NCBI GenBank assembly: GCA_009781395.1
Contig: WQYG01000004.1
Location: 1-50,037 of the forward strand
Source: Candidatus Bathycorpusculum sp.
GTDB lineage: Archaea; Thermoproteota; Bathyarchaeia; Bathyarchaeales; Bathycorpusculaceae
Reading direction: 5' to 3'
Length of the DNA stretch: 50,037 nucleotides
Every line of letters starts with the position of its first letter. Within the stretch, counting starts at the first letter, position 1. A program made the translations under genes and the position numbers. The notes below the pieces were generated by a model. It made no database searches and was not told the origin of the DNA. It worked only from the letters and a program-made list of their open reading frames with translations. Shown here piece by piece: positions 45,409-49,659 of the stretch.

Positions 45409-48400
45409 ATGGTTGAAACATTCAGAGAGCAAGTTCAAAAGCGTTTGTTTGGTTTGTCACGTAAGGATGTTTGTTTTTTTGCTTGGTTGTGTGCAGTACG
45501 TGCTTTACCCTTCCTAGGGGTGAGGAAAAATTTTAAACATTGGAAATCTGAAGCTATTGATAAAAGGCAAATACATCTGCTTGCAATATTTAACGCAATA
45601 GACACCGTTACATTTGGTAATAACGTTAATACTGTTCGAGTTGCCTGTGTCGCTGATGCTGTTTACGCTACCTATGCTGCTGCTGATACCGTTGCTGATG
45701 ATGTTGCTTATGCCGCTGTTCGTGCCGTCAATGCTGTCGAAGCTGCTACTGCCGCTGATGATGTTGGAGCTATCTACACTAATGATGTTGATGTTGTTGA
45801 TGTTGTTGCTGCTGATGCTGATGTTGCTGCCGCCGTTGTTGTTGTTGCTGCTGCAGCTGCTGCTGATGCTGCCACTGCTGATGCTGATGTTGCTGCCGCT
45901 GATGCTGATGCTGTCCTTGGAAAAAAGACAATTGACCTCAAACCTATTTTATTTGATGATTTAGAAAACATACTAACTAAGGAGTATAAATTTCAAAACG
46001 ATGTTTCCGTGTATGGAGATGTGTGGGGTAATTTTCAGAGGGCTTTGCGTGATGTGGGTTGTGAGTATTGGGGTGAATGGTATAAGAGGGTGTTTGCTAA
46101 GGGTTTTATGTTGGATGAGGGTGATCGTGAGGAAATTAAGTTGCGGCTTAATGTTCCTGGTGAAATTATGGATCAGGGGGCTGCGGTTGTTGCTCGGTAT
46201 GTTATGGAGTTAAAAGAGAAAGGTGCGGAGAGATTTAATGAAACACGTGTCATTATTTTGGGCAATAAAGGCTCAGGCAAAACCTCTCTTGCCAAACGTT
46301 TGAAGAACCCTACTGCGCAAATGCCTAACGATGATGAGAGCACAGAGGGCGTGGATGTTATTGATTGGCATGTTTTCGATGACTCCGGTCAGCACAGGGG
46401 GGTTAATGTTTATGTTTGGGATTTTGCGGGTCATGTTATTACTCATGCGGCTCATCGTTGTTTTATGTCTGAGCGTTGTCTATATATTTTGGTGGTTGAT
46501 GGTCGTACGGAGGGTGATGGTCGTACGGAGTATTGGTTGGAGCAGATTCGTAATTATGGTGGTGATTCTCCGGTGCTTGTTCTTGTTAATGTTCGAGATG
46601 AGCACTTTGTGGATTTGCCGGAAAATACTTTGAAAACAGAGTTTCCTTCGATCATTGGTTTTTACCAAGTGGATATAGGTGTGGGTGGTGTGTCATTGTG
46701 GGCTTTTCGTCAAAAGGTTATGGGTATTTTGCGGGATAGTCCTCTTTGGAAGAACCAACAAATATCTGCACCTACATACAAGGTTAAAGAGGCTCTTAGA
46801 CAAAAATTTAACCGCGGTAACAATTTCATTTCACTGGATGATTTTGATCAGATTGCCAAAAATAATGGCATTAAGTCAGAAGGGCGTGAGCAGTTATTAA
46901 AAGATCTTCATGACTTGGGCATCTGTTTGTGGTACGAAAACTTGGCAAGTTATAATATGCTCATGTTAAACCCTGTATGGATTAGTCGTGGGATATATAG
47001 ATTAATTAACTGGGGATCAAATGCTAAAAAGTGCACTTTATCTATTTTGGATTTTCGTGAAGTATTTAAAGGGGAGGATGCTTGTATCTACACTGTGGAA
47101 AAAGCTGGGTTTTTGTTTGATCTGATGGAAGTCTATCAGTTGGCATTTTTCAAGAATCCTCTTGAGATTTTTGTGCCTTTGTTGCTTCCAGCTAACCGTC
47201 CAGAGTCGGGGGTTCCAGAGTTTGTTTTTGGAGAACGTTTACGTATGGAGTATTATGCTAGTCAGGCATTGCCGCCATACACAGTGGCGCGTTTGGCGGT
47301 ACGTCATTCAAAGGAGTTGAATGAAGCGGGGTCATGGAAGTTTGGCGCGGTACTTAATTGGGAGGGTACAGATGCTCTTGTAGAGGAAAGTGAACGTACG
47401 CGTTCTGTGACTGTAACAGTCAAAGGACAAAAAAGGCGGGAGTACATAGCTATACTTCGAGATACATTAAATGACATTTTTGGTGACTATAGAAGCAGTT
47501 TCCCCGAACTGAAATACGAGGTTCTTGTTCATGATCCTGCAACACATAAAGTACAACCTATTGTTCTTCCTGAAGAAACAATTAAACGCCATGTTATGTT
47601 GGATCGAAAATATTTTGAGCCCAAGATCGGTGTTGAAATTCCCCTTGATAATACAGTCGAAGCATACAAAATTGATAATAACATACTTACTAAGTATAAT
47701 GTAACTAACATAATTAATTTGCATTATGACAATCGAGTGATGATTAGCACAGGTAACAATTTAAGTGAATTGGAGCCAGAGCTACTCTGCGAAGCAAGGC
47801 TTATTTGCATAGGTGATGCGGATGCGGGGAAAACTACACTTATCGAATGGCTTGTAACAAAAAAGTGGAAACAAACAACGGGTCCAACCCGAGGTATCGC
47901 AATCCGATCCACAATAATTGATGATCCTGAACCACTTGATCCCAAGCGTAAGTTGGGTCTAAATTATTGGGATTTCGGTGGACAGGACATTATGCATTCT
48001 ATGCATCAATACTTCATGGCGGAGCGGTGTCTTTACATTATCGTACTTGATGGTCGTAGAGATGAAAAACCAGAGTATTGGCTCGACCTAGTTTCTATGT
48101 ATGGTGGGCGTTCACCTGTCATGATCGTTATGAATAAGATCGATCACAATAATAATGCACGTATAAACGAAGAAAAAATTCGCGAGATATACGGTCGAAA
48201 ATTGATGCACATTTCATTTCATTACCTGTCCTGCAAAAAAGAAATTGGTCTTGTCGATTTTCAAATAGAAGTATTGCGTACAATTAAATTGATGGAATGT
48301 TATCAGACGGTATTTTCAAAGAACTGGAATCAGGTTCGGCAGCATGTTCGTCATATGAGAGATGCTAATGGAATCCCCAAGAATTATCTGAGTATCGAAG

Positions 48401-49659
48401 AATATGGTTGTATTTGTAAAAAATACTCAATTGATGAAAAAGATGTGCATATTCTTCTCGGCTGGCTACATGATATGGGAATTTGTTTGAGTTACCAACA
48501 CATTCATGCCTCTGGCGTAGTTGAGAAAATAAAAGTATTACAACCAGAATGGATTACCACTGGTATTTATAAAATAATTAATGATGAGCGAGCAACAATA
48601 CGAAACGGTTTTGTCACACACCAAATGCTTAGAACAATATTGGAAGAAAACGATGGAGAGAACGTACAATTTAGAAATATTGAGTGTGATTTTATTCTTG
48701 AAATGATGCGAATATTTCAATATTCATATTCAGTAGGTAATGACGAATTTTTTCCAATGCTCACATCAATCGAAAAATCCCCTTTGACACCAAAATTAGC
48801 TATTGCAGAGACTATTACCTATCGCATCCGGTTTGCTTCACTTTTGCCTGTGTCGGTATTACACAATGTTATTGTCCGTCTGCGTGAAGATGTGCAACCA
48901 AACTTTACTTGGCGTGAAGGAACCTTCTTGAGCAATAACAAAGTGTACGCGCAGTTAGCCTTTGGTGAAGATCGGAAAGTTCTAGACATAAAAGTAGCTG
49001 GTGCACGTGAAGATGCGGCACGTTACCTTTTACGGCTTTTGGATGAAATACATCGTGTGCTTCTGTATATTGATGTCGAATGGACGGAATTTGTCGTTGT
49101 CACACATGAAAATGTGAGTGCTGAATTAGATGTTGAACGGTTACAAAAAATGTATACTCAAGGTCTACGTGAAGAATATGTGACGGAATTCGATGCAGTT
49201 ATGCCTATTTTACCGATTCTTCGAAACATCATACCGCAGCTCGTTATCGATAAACTGCAGAATGCAGCAAATGATGTAAACATGGTGCGCGAGATCCTCA
49301 AGGCATCTTTCGCTACACAAAAAGACGTTAAAATGATGCGACAGCAGATGGCGCAAATATATGTAAGCATACGGGAAATTAGTAATAAAGTTAGTAATAA
49401 TGAAAAATATGCCCTAGAAACATATGCGCGTTTAAACACTAATATTGACAAAATTTTACAATGTGTTGAAGACATCAAGAAGAATGCTGCCAATAATGAT
49501 TCTAAACTCTGTAATGCCATCAAAGAAGTCTATGATGTTGTGAAAAGTAAAAATCAGCAAAATCTTCTGACAAAGTTGCTTACACTTGTGCAACACACGG
49601 CCAATTTGTATAGCGTATGTGGATTGGGCCAGCACCTACTGTCCCTTATTCAATGGTAG
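45409..49659 (+). CDS. Tandem double Roc-COR (Roco) GTPase with Ala/Asp-rich N-terminal region
   Basis: The 1416-residue protein contains two Ras-of-complex GTPase domains, each followed by a COR-like dimerisation region. Roc1: P-loop GNKGSGKTS (residues 285-293), switch II WDFAGH (337-342), G4 site NVRDE (394-398), which is degenerate. Roc2: P-loop GDADAGKTT (802-810), WDFGGQ (854-859) and intact NKID (909-912). Both COR regions share the pattern DLGICLWYE/DMGICLSYQ and LNPVWISRGIYRLIN/LQPEWITTGIYKIIN. Residues 1-78 (including CAVRALPFLG) and the Ala/Asp tract at 80-168 precede them. A coiled coil covers about 1290-1380, with a hydrophobic C-terminal end. I see no leucine-rich repeats or kinase. 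Roco proteins act as dimeric switches; this one may contain both halves of the dimer. Its output is unknown; a signalling or NLR-like defence role is speculation. Confidence 0.88.
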   Translation: MVETFREQVQKRLFGLSRKDVCFFAWLCAVRALPFLGVRKNFKHWKSEAIDKRQIHLLAIFNAIDTVTFGNNVNTVRVACVADAVYATYAAADTVADDVAYAAVRAVNAVEAATAADDVGAIYTNDVDVVDVVAADADVAAAVVVVAAAAAADAATADADVAAADADAVLGKKTIDLKPILFDDLENILTKEYKFQNDVSVYGDVWGNFQRALRDVGCEYWGEWYKRVFAKGFMLDEGDREEIKLRLNVPGEIMDQGAAVVARYVMELKEKGAERFNETRVIILGNKGSGKTSLAKRLKNPTAQMPNDDESTEGVDVIDWHVFDDSGQHRGVNVYVWDFAGHVITHAAHRCFMSERCLYILVVDGRTEGDGRTEYWLEQIRNYGGDSPVLVLVNVRDEHFVDLPENTLKTEFPSIIGFYQVDIGVGGVSLWAFRQKVMGILRDSPLWKNQQISAPTYKVKEALRQKFNRGNNFISLDDFDQIAKNNGIKSEGREQLLKDLHDLGICLWYENLASYNMLMLNPVWISRGIYRLINWGSNAKKCTLSILDFREVFKGEDACIYTVEKAGFLFDLMEVYQLAFFKNPLEIFVPLLLPANRPESGVPEFVFGERLRMEYYASQALPPYTVARLAVRHSKELNEAGSWKFGAVLNWEGTDALVEESERTRSVTVTVKGQKRREYIAILRDTLNDIFGDYRSSFPELKYEVLVHDPATHKVQPIVLPEETIKRHVMLDRKYFEPKIGVEIPLDNTVEAYKIDNNILTKYNVTNIINLHYDNRVMISTGNNLSELEPELLCEARLICIGDADAGKTTLIEWLVTKKWKQTTGPTRGIAIRSTIIDDPEPLDPKRKLGLNYWDFGGQDIMHSMHQYFMAERCLYIIVLDGRRDEKPEYWLDLVSMYGGRSPVMIVMNKIDHNNNARINEEKIREIYGRKLMHISFHYLSCKKEIGLVDFQIEVLRTIKLMECYQTVFSKNWNQVRQHVRHMRDANGIPKNYLSIEEYGCICKKYSIDEKDVHILLGWLHDMGICLSYQHIHASGVVEKIKVLQPEWITTGIYKIINDERATIRNGFVTHQMLRTILEENDGENVQFRNIECDFILEMMRIFQYSYSVGNDEFFPMLTSIEKSPLTPKLAIAETITYRIRFASLLPVSVLHNVIVRLREDVQPNFTWREGTFLSNNKVYAQLAFGEDRKVLDIKVAGAREDAARYLLRLLDEIHRVLLYIDVEWTEFVVVTHENVSAELDVERLQKMYTQGLREEYVTEFDAVMPILPILRNIIPQLVIDKLQNAANDVNMVREILKASFATQKDVKMMRQQMAQIYVSIREISNKVSNNEKYALETYARLNTNIDKILQCVEDIKKNAANNDSKLCNAIKEVYDVVKSKNQQNLLTKLLTLVQHTANLYSVCGLGQHLLSLIQW
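45646..45912 (+). repeat. GCTGAT/GCTGTT-type triplet-rich tract coding for Ala/Asp/Val
   Basis: About 89 codons use almost only Ala, Asp, Val, Thr and Tyr, written with GCT, GAT and GTT, for example DADADVAAA-type runs. The tract resembles helical Ala-rich segments seen in other archaeal and bacterial multi-domain NTPases. The repetition makes length variation by slippage likely. Confidence 0.7.

Follow-up and report, generated by a model that had tools for sequence, protein, structure and literature searches.

A question is raised by one gene in a 50,037-nucleotide stretch of the archaeon Candidatus Bathycorpusculum sp. (assembly GCA_009781395.1, contig WQYG01000004.1, positions 1 to 50,037; this whole stretch is the window): can a single polypeptide hold two complete Roc-COR GTPase modules, and how would two such switches work when tied together? 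The gene, on the + strand at 45409..49659, encodes a Roco protein of 1416 amino acids (aa). Roco proteins are usually, though not strictly by definition, described as having one central Roc-COR unit per chain, and this chain has two. The protein may show how two GTP switches of the type found in LRRK2, the Roco protein of Parkinson's disease, work as a pair.

Two Roc-COR modules in one chain

Domains were called by Pfam profile search and folds by comparing two AlphaFold models (aa 1-790 and aa 787-1416) with Roco crystal structures. The succession Roc, COR-A and COR-B occurs twice in the same open reading frame, with all six domains above the Pfam cut-offs, and the folds of both modules match the crystal structures. 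This confirms the central claim of the original prediction, made from the sequence alone, that the chain carries two complete Roc-COR units; neither segment fails the profile search. The first module is formed by Roc1 (46246..46596, + strand, as are all features given below; PF08477, 85.6 bits, E 5.7e-23), COR-A 1 (46777..47187; PF16095, 77.6 bits) and COR-B 1 (47236..47595; PF25497, E 4.4e-12). An inter-module linker of about 65 aa (47596..47790), with no relative among the compared loci, leads to the second module, formed by Roc2 (47797..48144; PF08477, 94.5 bits), COR-A 2 (48319..48744; PF16095, 100.6 bits) and COR-B 2 (48808..49224; PF25497, E 9.2e-9).

Both Roc domains are intact in the P-loop, the switch Thr, the DxxG motif, the G4 Asn and Asp and the arginine-finger position. 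Roc1 has G1 GNKGSGKT (46261..46284), G3 DFAGH (46420..46434), in which the His takes the position of Ras Q61 and LRRK2 R1398, and G4 NVRD (46588..46599). The corresponding motifs of Roc2 are GDADAGKT (47812..47835), DFGGQ (47971..47985) and NKID (48133..48144), so that the normal P-loop previously read in Roc1 and the standard P-loop, DxGGQ and NKID read in Roc2 are all present. The arginine finger that characterizes G proteins activated by dimerisation (GAD) is found in both modules by alignment to Arg543 of Chlorobium tepidum Roco (CtRoco), within DGRTE in Roc1 (Arg at 46504..46506) and DGRRD in Roc2 (Arg at 48055..48057). It was placed through chain 3dpu_A, in which DSRTD contributes the Arg, residue 132 of the chain and Arg543 in the entry numbering; Ser542 is reported to adjoin Arg543 in CtRoco (PMC4721548). 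Given these motifs, both modules probably bind guanine nucleotide, and Roc2 would be a canonical Gln-type switch.

The doubled Roc-COR is rare and, among the genomes examined, a singleton found in a single genome, because each of the 163 COR-A matches outside the window reading frame (double-counted centre genomes removed) lacks a second complete COR-A in its open frame. In the genus, COR-A occurs in 7 of 32 genomes with 15 matches, two of them in the window reading frame, while each of the 13 others lies alone in its frame; in the class it occurs in 7 of 256 genomes, the same seven of this genus. A further 39 matches lie in 20 genomes reached through the compared loci. The other four phyla gave 28 matches in 20 of 344 genomes (phylum of an ANME-1 archaeon), 68 in 42 of 339 (Nostoc phylum), 14 in 11 of 247 (Aureibaculum phylum) and 6 in 5 of 199 (phylum of a Planctomycetaceae bacterium). 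Matches were accepted up to E 1e-5 in the genus, the class and the locus-reached genomes and up to 1e-8 in the four other phyla, limits at which a second COR of lower similarity might escape, and the genome samples were draws that left out eukaryotic genomes. Two COR-A pieces in two frames of genome G1496 are parts of one COR-A. A local scan of the loci found Roc together with COR-A in 154 open reading frames, overlapping loci being counted repeatedly, and two modules only in stretches of the window gene; a double Roc call in locus L180 proved to be the split match of one domain. In the alignment of the tandem protein all 52 rows cover module 1 and none covers half or more of module 2. The earlier expectation of an uncommon architecture thus holds, with no second archaeal case in the search, and no double Roc-COR is described in the titles, abstracts and passages of the literature matches listed, in a search with subscription papers and bioRxiv outside its scope. 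By its domains the protein is a Roco.

Ancestry of the two modules

The comparison of single modules started from 151 modules, reduced to 128 distinct ones with window-derived loci left out, 66 of which were used in the tree. Locus L037 (610-2890, contig C88 of genome G002), a member of the Ala-rich Roco family, was excluded: two overlapping frames divide its Roc from its COR, and it is either broken or carries a sequencing error. Sequence comparison places Roc1-COR1 in a genus-specific Roco family: it is 66% identical to the single-module protein of locus L041 and sits inside the starred clades of the 66-row tree. The motif WDFAGH is found in 7 of the 8 sampled single-module relatives and in none of 118 other modules, in which the Q61 column holds Gln 117 times and Arg once. 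At G4, the Roc1 sequence NVRD retains Asn and Asp, with Val at the Lys position, and the family as a whole varies there (NVRD, NARD, NEKD, NKID, NESD, NLRG). So do the 118 other Roco modules, with K in 89 and E in 27 at the Lys column and D in 83 at the Asp column, some of which misalignment may explain, and the G4-G5 region of Roc domains is said to vary (PMC6337361). The finger Arg is conserved in 8 of 8 family members and in 115 of the 118 other modules. Because WDFAGH is so common in single-module relatives and G4 is variable in other Roco proteins, the Roc1 motifs are best read as family traits older than the fusion, with no sign of a half that decayed after it. The original prediction of a degenerate Roc1 is weak in this light, and the same motifs, being present in proteins with a single module, do not mark a regulatory half as it had proposed.

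Roc2 combines textbook motifs with a very long branch (2.08), at most 30% identity to any tree row and 25% identity to Roc1. A recent internal duplication of Roc1-COR1 is ruled out by this last value and by the rejection of Roc1/Roc2 sisterhood (approximately unbiased test, p 3.4e-6). The test does not reject (p 0.24) a grouping of Roc2 with the seven core rows of the family; once L042 is included, such a grouping exists as a branch of the tree (support 75.8). Of the 41 columns that distinguish the family from other modules, 15 show the family state in Roc2, 12 show that of the others and 14 show neither. An old origin is probable for the Roc2 module, which may stem from the lineage of this genus. 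The protein may then be a Roco of the genus family, whose layout is an N-terminal domain with an Ala-repeat insert, a Roc-COR and a tail, that gained a second, divergent Roc-COR module. This is the historical part of an explanation, completed below, that we hold as a whole with slightly less than even confidence.

A possible intramolecular switch and its rivals

CtRoco is reported to be mainly a dimer in the apo and GDP states and a monomer with GTP (PMC5714945), and its Arg543 finger to act on the other protomer (PMC4721548). Because the window protein has two Arg-bearing modules in one chain, an intramolecular pair that opens on GTP would be the simplest extension of the CtRoco cycle. In such a protein, COR-B 1 and COR-B 2 would pair inside the chain, each Roc would lend its arginine to the other, and the nucleotide-driven dimer-monomer cycle would become an intramolecular cycle of opening and closing, with opening on GTP binding. 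Pairing of the two modules within the chain is a tentative proposal, to which we give a chance somewhat short of even.

The two halves might differ in their part in this cycle. In the alignment of Roc1 with the LRRK2 R1398H structure (6xaf), the switch II His of Roc1 is the R1398H residue, LRRK2 itself being reported to have Arg, not Gln, at the position equivalent to Q61 (PMC13345514). R1398H was reported to increase both dimerisation and GTP hydrolysis (PMC4781896), while for the purified domain a 2026 preprint reports GTP hydrolysis lowered threefold, a stabilised dimeric off state and retained GDP binding, with the substitution stabilising the Roc dimer and a GDP-like state (PMC13345514). 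Since the two papers agree on the dimer and differ on turnover, Roc1 may be a His-type switch that leans to a paired, GDP-like state and still binds nucleotide. This is a further part of the explanation begun with the gain of the second module and shares its grade.

The main rival, itself doubtful, is a parallel homodimer in which the C-terminal tail (49225..49656) drives dimers of whole chains, Roc1-COR1 facing Roc1-COR1 and Roc2-COR2 facing Roc2-COR2 in a four-GTPase assembly. Long helices are indeed predicted after COR-B 2, and the relatives with the same motifs as Roc1 carry a single module each, so that any pairing of theirs would be between chains. However, the tail helices are modelled at low confidence (pLDDT, the predicted local distance difference test, 38-59), and blastp finds the tail no relative under E 0.1 among the compared loci. 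The C-terminal coiled coil announced earlier appears as a helical tail in a low-confidence AlphaFold model, with a crude heptad score; the coiled coil itself is probable.

The reading favoured by the original prediction, in which only Roc2 works as a GTPase and a degenerate Roc1 serves as a regulatory half without catalysis, now appears improbable. It could draw on the His at Q61 and the Val at the G4 Lys, on the lowered hydrolysis of R1398H in one of the LRRK2 studies (PMC13345514), and on the active/inactive pairs of other conflict systems, among which one nSTAND2 STAND is reported to have eroded NTP-binding motifs (PMC8195603). Yet the P-loop, switch Thr, DxxG, G4 Asn and Asp and finger Arg of Roc1 are all kept, WDFAGH is found in seven of the eight sampled single-module relatives, whose chains contain no further Roc, and G4 varies in other Roco proteins as well. 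EF-Tu-like GTPases, moreover, carry a catalytic His at this switch II position.

That the gene is an assembly chimera, or that two adjacent Roco genes fused recently without yielding a working protein, is very improbable even in a genome fragmented into 163 contigs and for a singleton with no other frame with two COR-A matches, since the junction is coding, in frame and without reported tandem repeats, the 1416 codons run without a stop, the motifs of both halves are intact, the guanine-cytosine content of each half fits the window, and Roc2 differs too much from every compared sequence to have arisen lately as a neighbouring copy. What further speaks for it is the placement of other Roco genes. 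On single contigs of three genomes from the ANME-1 archaeon's phylum, as judged by coordinates, pairs of distinct Roco matches in different frames are separated by 2.1-3.6 kb (L166/L186 on C97 of G579, L190/L193 on C1 of G755, L179/L191 on C26 of G936), and two in G974 of the Nostoc phylum by 3.3 kb; such nearby COR-A frames offer a possible route to fusion. Two contigs of the protein's own genome (G000), moreover, end (C95) and begin (C131) in the Ala repeats of this Roco family.

The latter two contig ends (L218 on C95, 6706-7254, and L034 on C131, 1-2316) probably mark an assembly break, and C131 shows that the genome holds at least one further Roco of the family. Foreign composition was seen in neither half of the window protein. 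As to mobile carriage, pattern scans confirmed no relative in viral contigs, tblastn gave none in phages, and 12 plasmid records have one place each, with one Roc-COR-sized match.

The N-terminal domain, conflict biology and known Roco systems

The first 270 aa consist of two conserved blocks, aa 1-75 (FAWLCAVRALPFL; 45409..45633; up to 53% identical to relatives by blastp) and aa 171-270 (45919..46218; 62-70% identical to the nearest relatives), on either side of a hypervariable stretch of short DNA repeats (aa 76-170, 45634..45918). The latter is 41% Ala, includes a 21-nt repeat in 5.2 copies at 45798-45910 (Tandem Repeats Finder), and differs in its short repeats between the two species compared. 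The Ala richness noted earlier is that of this stretch, which lies inside a conserved domain. No Pfam family matches aa 1-270 at E<=0.01, no leucine-rich repeat (LRR) is among the 25 of 31 whole-protein families listed, and at the same E limit no protein kinase family is found in the C-terminal half or tail, in agreement with the earlier statement that LRRs and a kinase are missing. An N-terminal LRR is the mark of prokaryotic group 1 Roco proteins and a C-terminal kinase that of LRRK-type ones. The AlphaFold model has low confidence over the N-terminal domain, and the structure comparison of this model covered aa 271-734.

A profile of this domain (alignment A5, 10 family rows, some without the first block) finds it in 6 of the 32 genus genomes. 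Beyond Roco proteins it matches a 183-aa frame at the end of C95 in the own genome, an 88-aa frame on C75 of G027, and, four times, one 2488-aa frame of G021 (L217:2303-9766, contig C73), where the matches are read as three copies, two of them being taken as halves of a single domain. The 2488-aa frame also has WD40, PPDK_N, NACHT and pentapeptide repeats, and G021 has no COR-A match. By sequence, the N-terminal domain is common to Roc-COR and NACHT switches of the same genus. The G021 protein is an unusual fusion, with a nuclease-like stretch recognised by eye only, and may be a conflict protein.

Prokaryotic Roc-COR proteins, or AP-GTPases, have been predicted to act as switches against invaders (PMC8195603). 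This prediction and the domain shared with a NACHT protein together hint at a conflict role like that of NLRs (nucleotide-binding leucine-rich repeat receptors): the N-terminal domain would probably serve as sensor or adaptor, and the whole protein would probably act in an NLR-like conflict or stress response. AP-GTPase conflict systems combine Roc-COR with an effector domain and a variable sensor end; the window protein has the Roc-COR, its N-terminal domain is shared with a NACHT protein, and no effector is recognised in it. The conflict role is conceivable, with doubt slightly prevailing. The full picture, a natural single-chain Roco heterodimer in an NLR-like archaeal conflict protein, in which the His-type Roc would hold the pair and the Gln-type Roc would open it on GTP, is unlikely to hold in every part.

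Several points tell against the explanation as a whole. The reported effect of the His on hydrolysis is contradictory and hence unsettled, the helical tail could instead join whole chains, and the fusion has been met in a single genome. PADLOC gives three weak matches on the window protein, all over a P-loop and none beyond; on L034 it gives two weak matches, one to LeoA over the P-loop and one to PDC-M14B over the tail (18.3 bits, E 3.6e-4), on L041 and L045 no match, on L046 matches to tetratricopeptide repeat (TPR) models, and on L043 a weak match to Csx3. No effector domain is recognised in the window protein, and the 10 neighbour proteins of relatives form no consistent defence neighbourhood; they are mixed genes, including an extracellular contractile injection system (eCIS) core protein and proteins of phospholipase C and lipase type.

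The eCIS core-domain protein (L039:10539-11519, C14 of G015) lies downstream of a single-module Roco. Another Roco architecture of the genus is a 2117-aa frame (L046:1-6351, C70 of G012) whose P-loop NTPase looks NACHT-like by eye and which also has a long array of TPRs and a single Roc-COR. In the own genome, L004 (C60, 374-2875) combines, by eye, a P-loop NTPase with WD40-like repeats, and its weak Roc match (21 bits, below the cut-off) is probably not a Roc. Elsewhere in the window, a protein of repeated GGGVY/SGGxISGN units stands beside a frame read by eye as transposase-like (627-1958 and 1967-2560).

How GTP hydrolysis is coupled to dimerisation in Roco proteins, LRRK2 included, is reported to be still debated (PMC6337361, PMC5714945), and with two linked modules of different switch type either half can be mutated by itself, an option that a homodimer lacks. 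Roc1 and seven of its eight single-module relatives are natural carriers of the protective LRRK2 R1398H residue, whose effect on hydrolysis is contradictory in print, and the shared N-terminal domain connects these Roco proteins with a protein of NACHT type from their own genus.

Among known proteins, the single-module Roco proteins of the genus (L034, L035, L036, L039, L040, L041, L042 and L044) share the N-terminal domain, inside which L034 and L035 start, the COR and, except for L042, WDFAGH; they differ in having no second Roc-COR and in tails not detectably related to that of the window protein. Prokaryotic AP-GTPase conflict systems are described as similar in their Roc and COR switch, several paralogues per genome and variable ends, with fast-evolving N-terminal LRRs and C-terminal effectors (PMC8195603), in contrast to the Ala-repeat domain and lack of a recognised effector seen here. 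CtRoco (3dpu, 6hlu, 8r4b) and Methanosarcina barkeri Roco2 (4wnr) have the same P-loop, DxGG and Arg543 finger position; both have one module per chain, and CtRoco an N-terminal LRR, whereas the window protein has two modules, another N-terminal domain and a helical tail. Human LRRK2 shares the Roc-COR fold and the DFAG(R/H) switch II, with Roc1 naturally bearing the His of R1398H (6xaf); the window protein differs in its two Roc-COR modules, and no kinase, LRR, ankyrin or WD40 is found in it. The nearest published precedent among the matches listed is a set of three Trichoplax adhaerens Roco proteins (TRIADDRAFT_62404, _62498 and _57945), which likewise have two GTPase domains per chain, with a proposed split of roles between them. 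In these, the added domain is described as Ras-like and N-terminal of the ROC (PMC4104024), whereas each Roc of the window protein has its own COR-A and COR-B.

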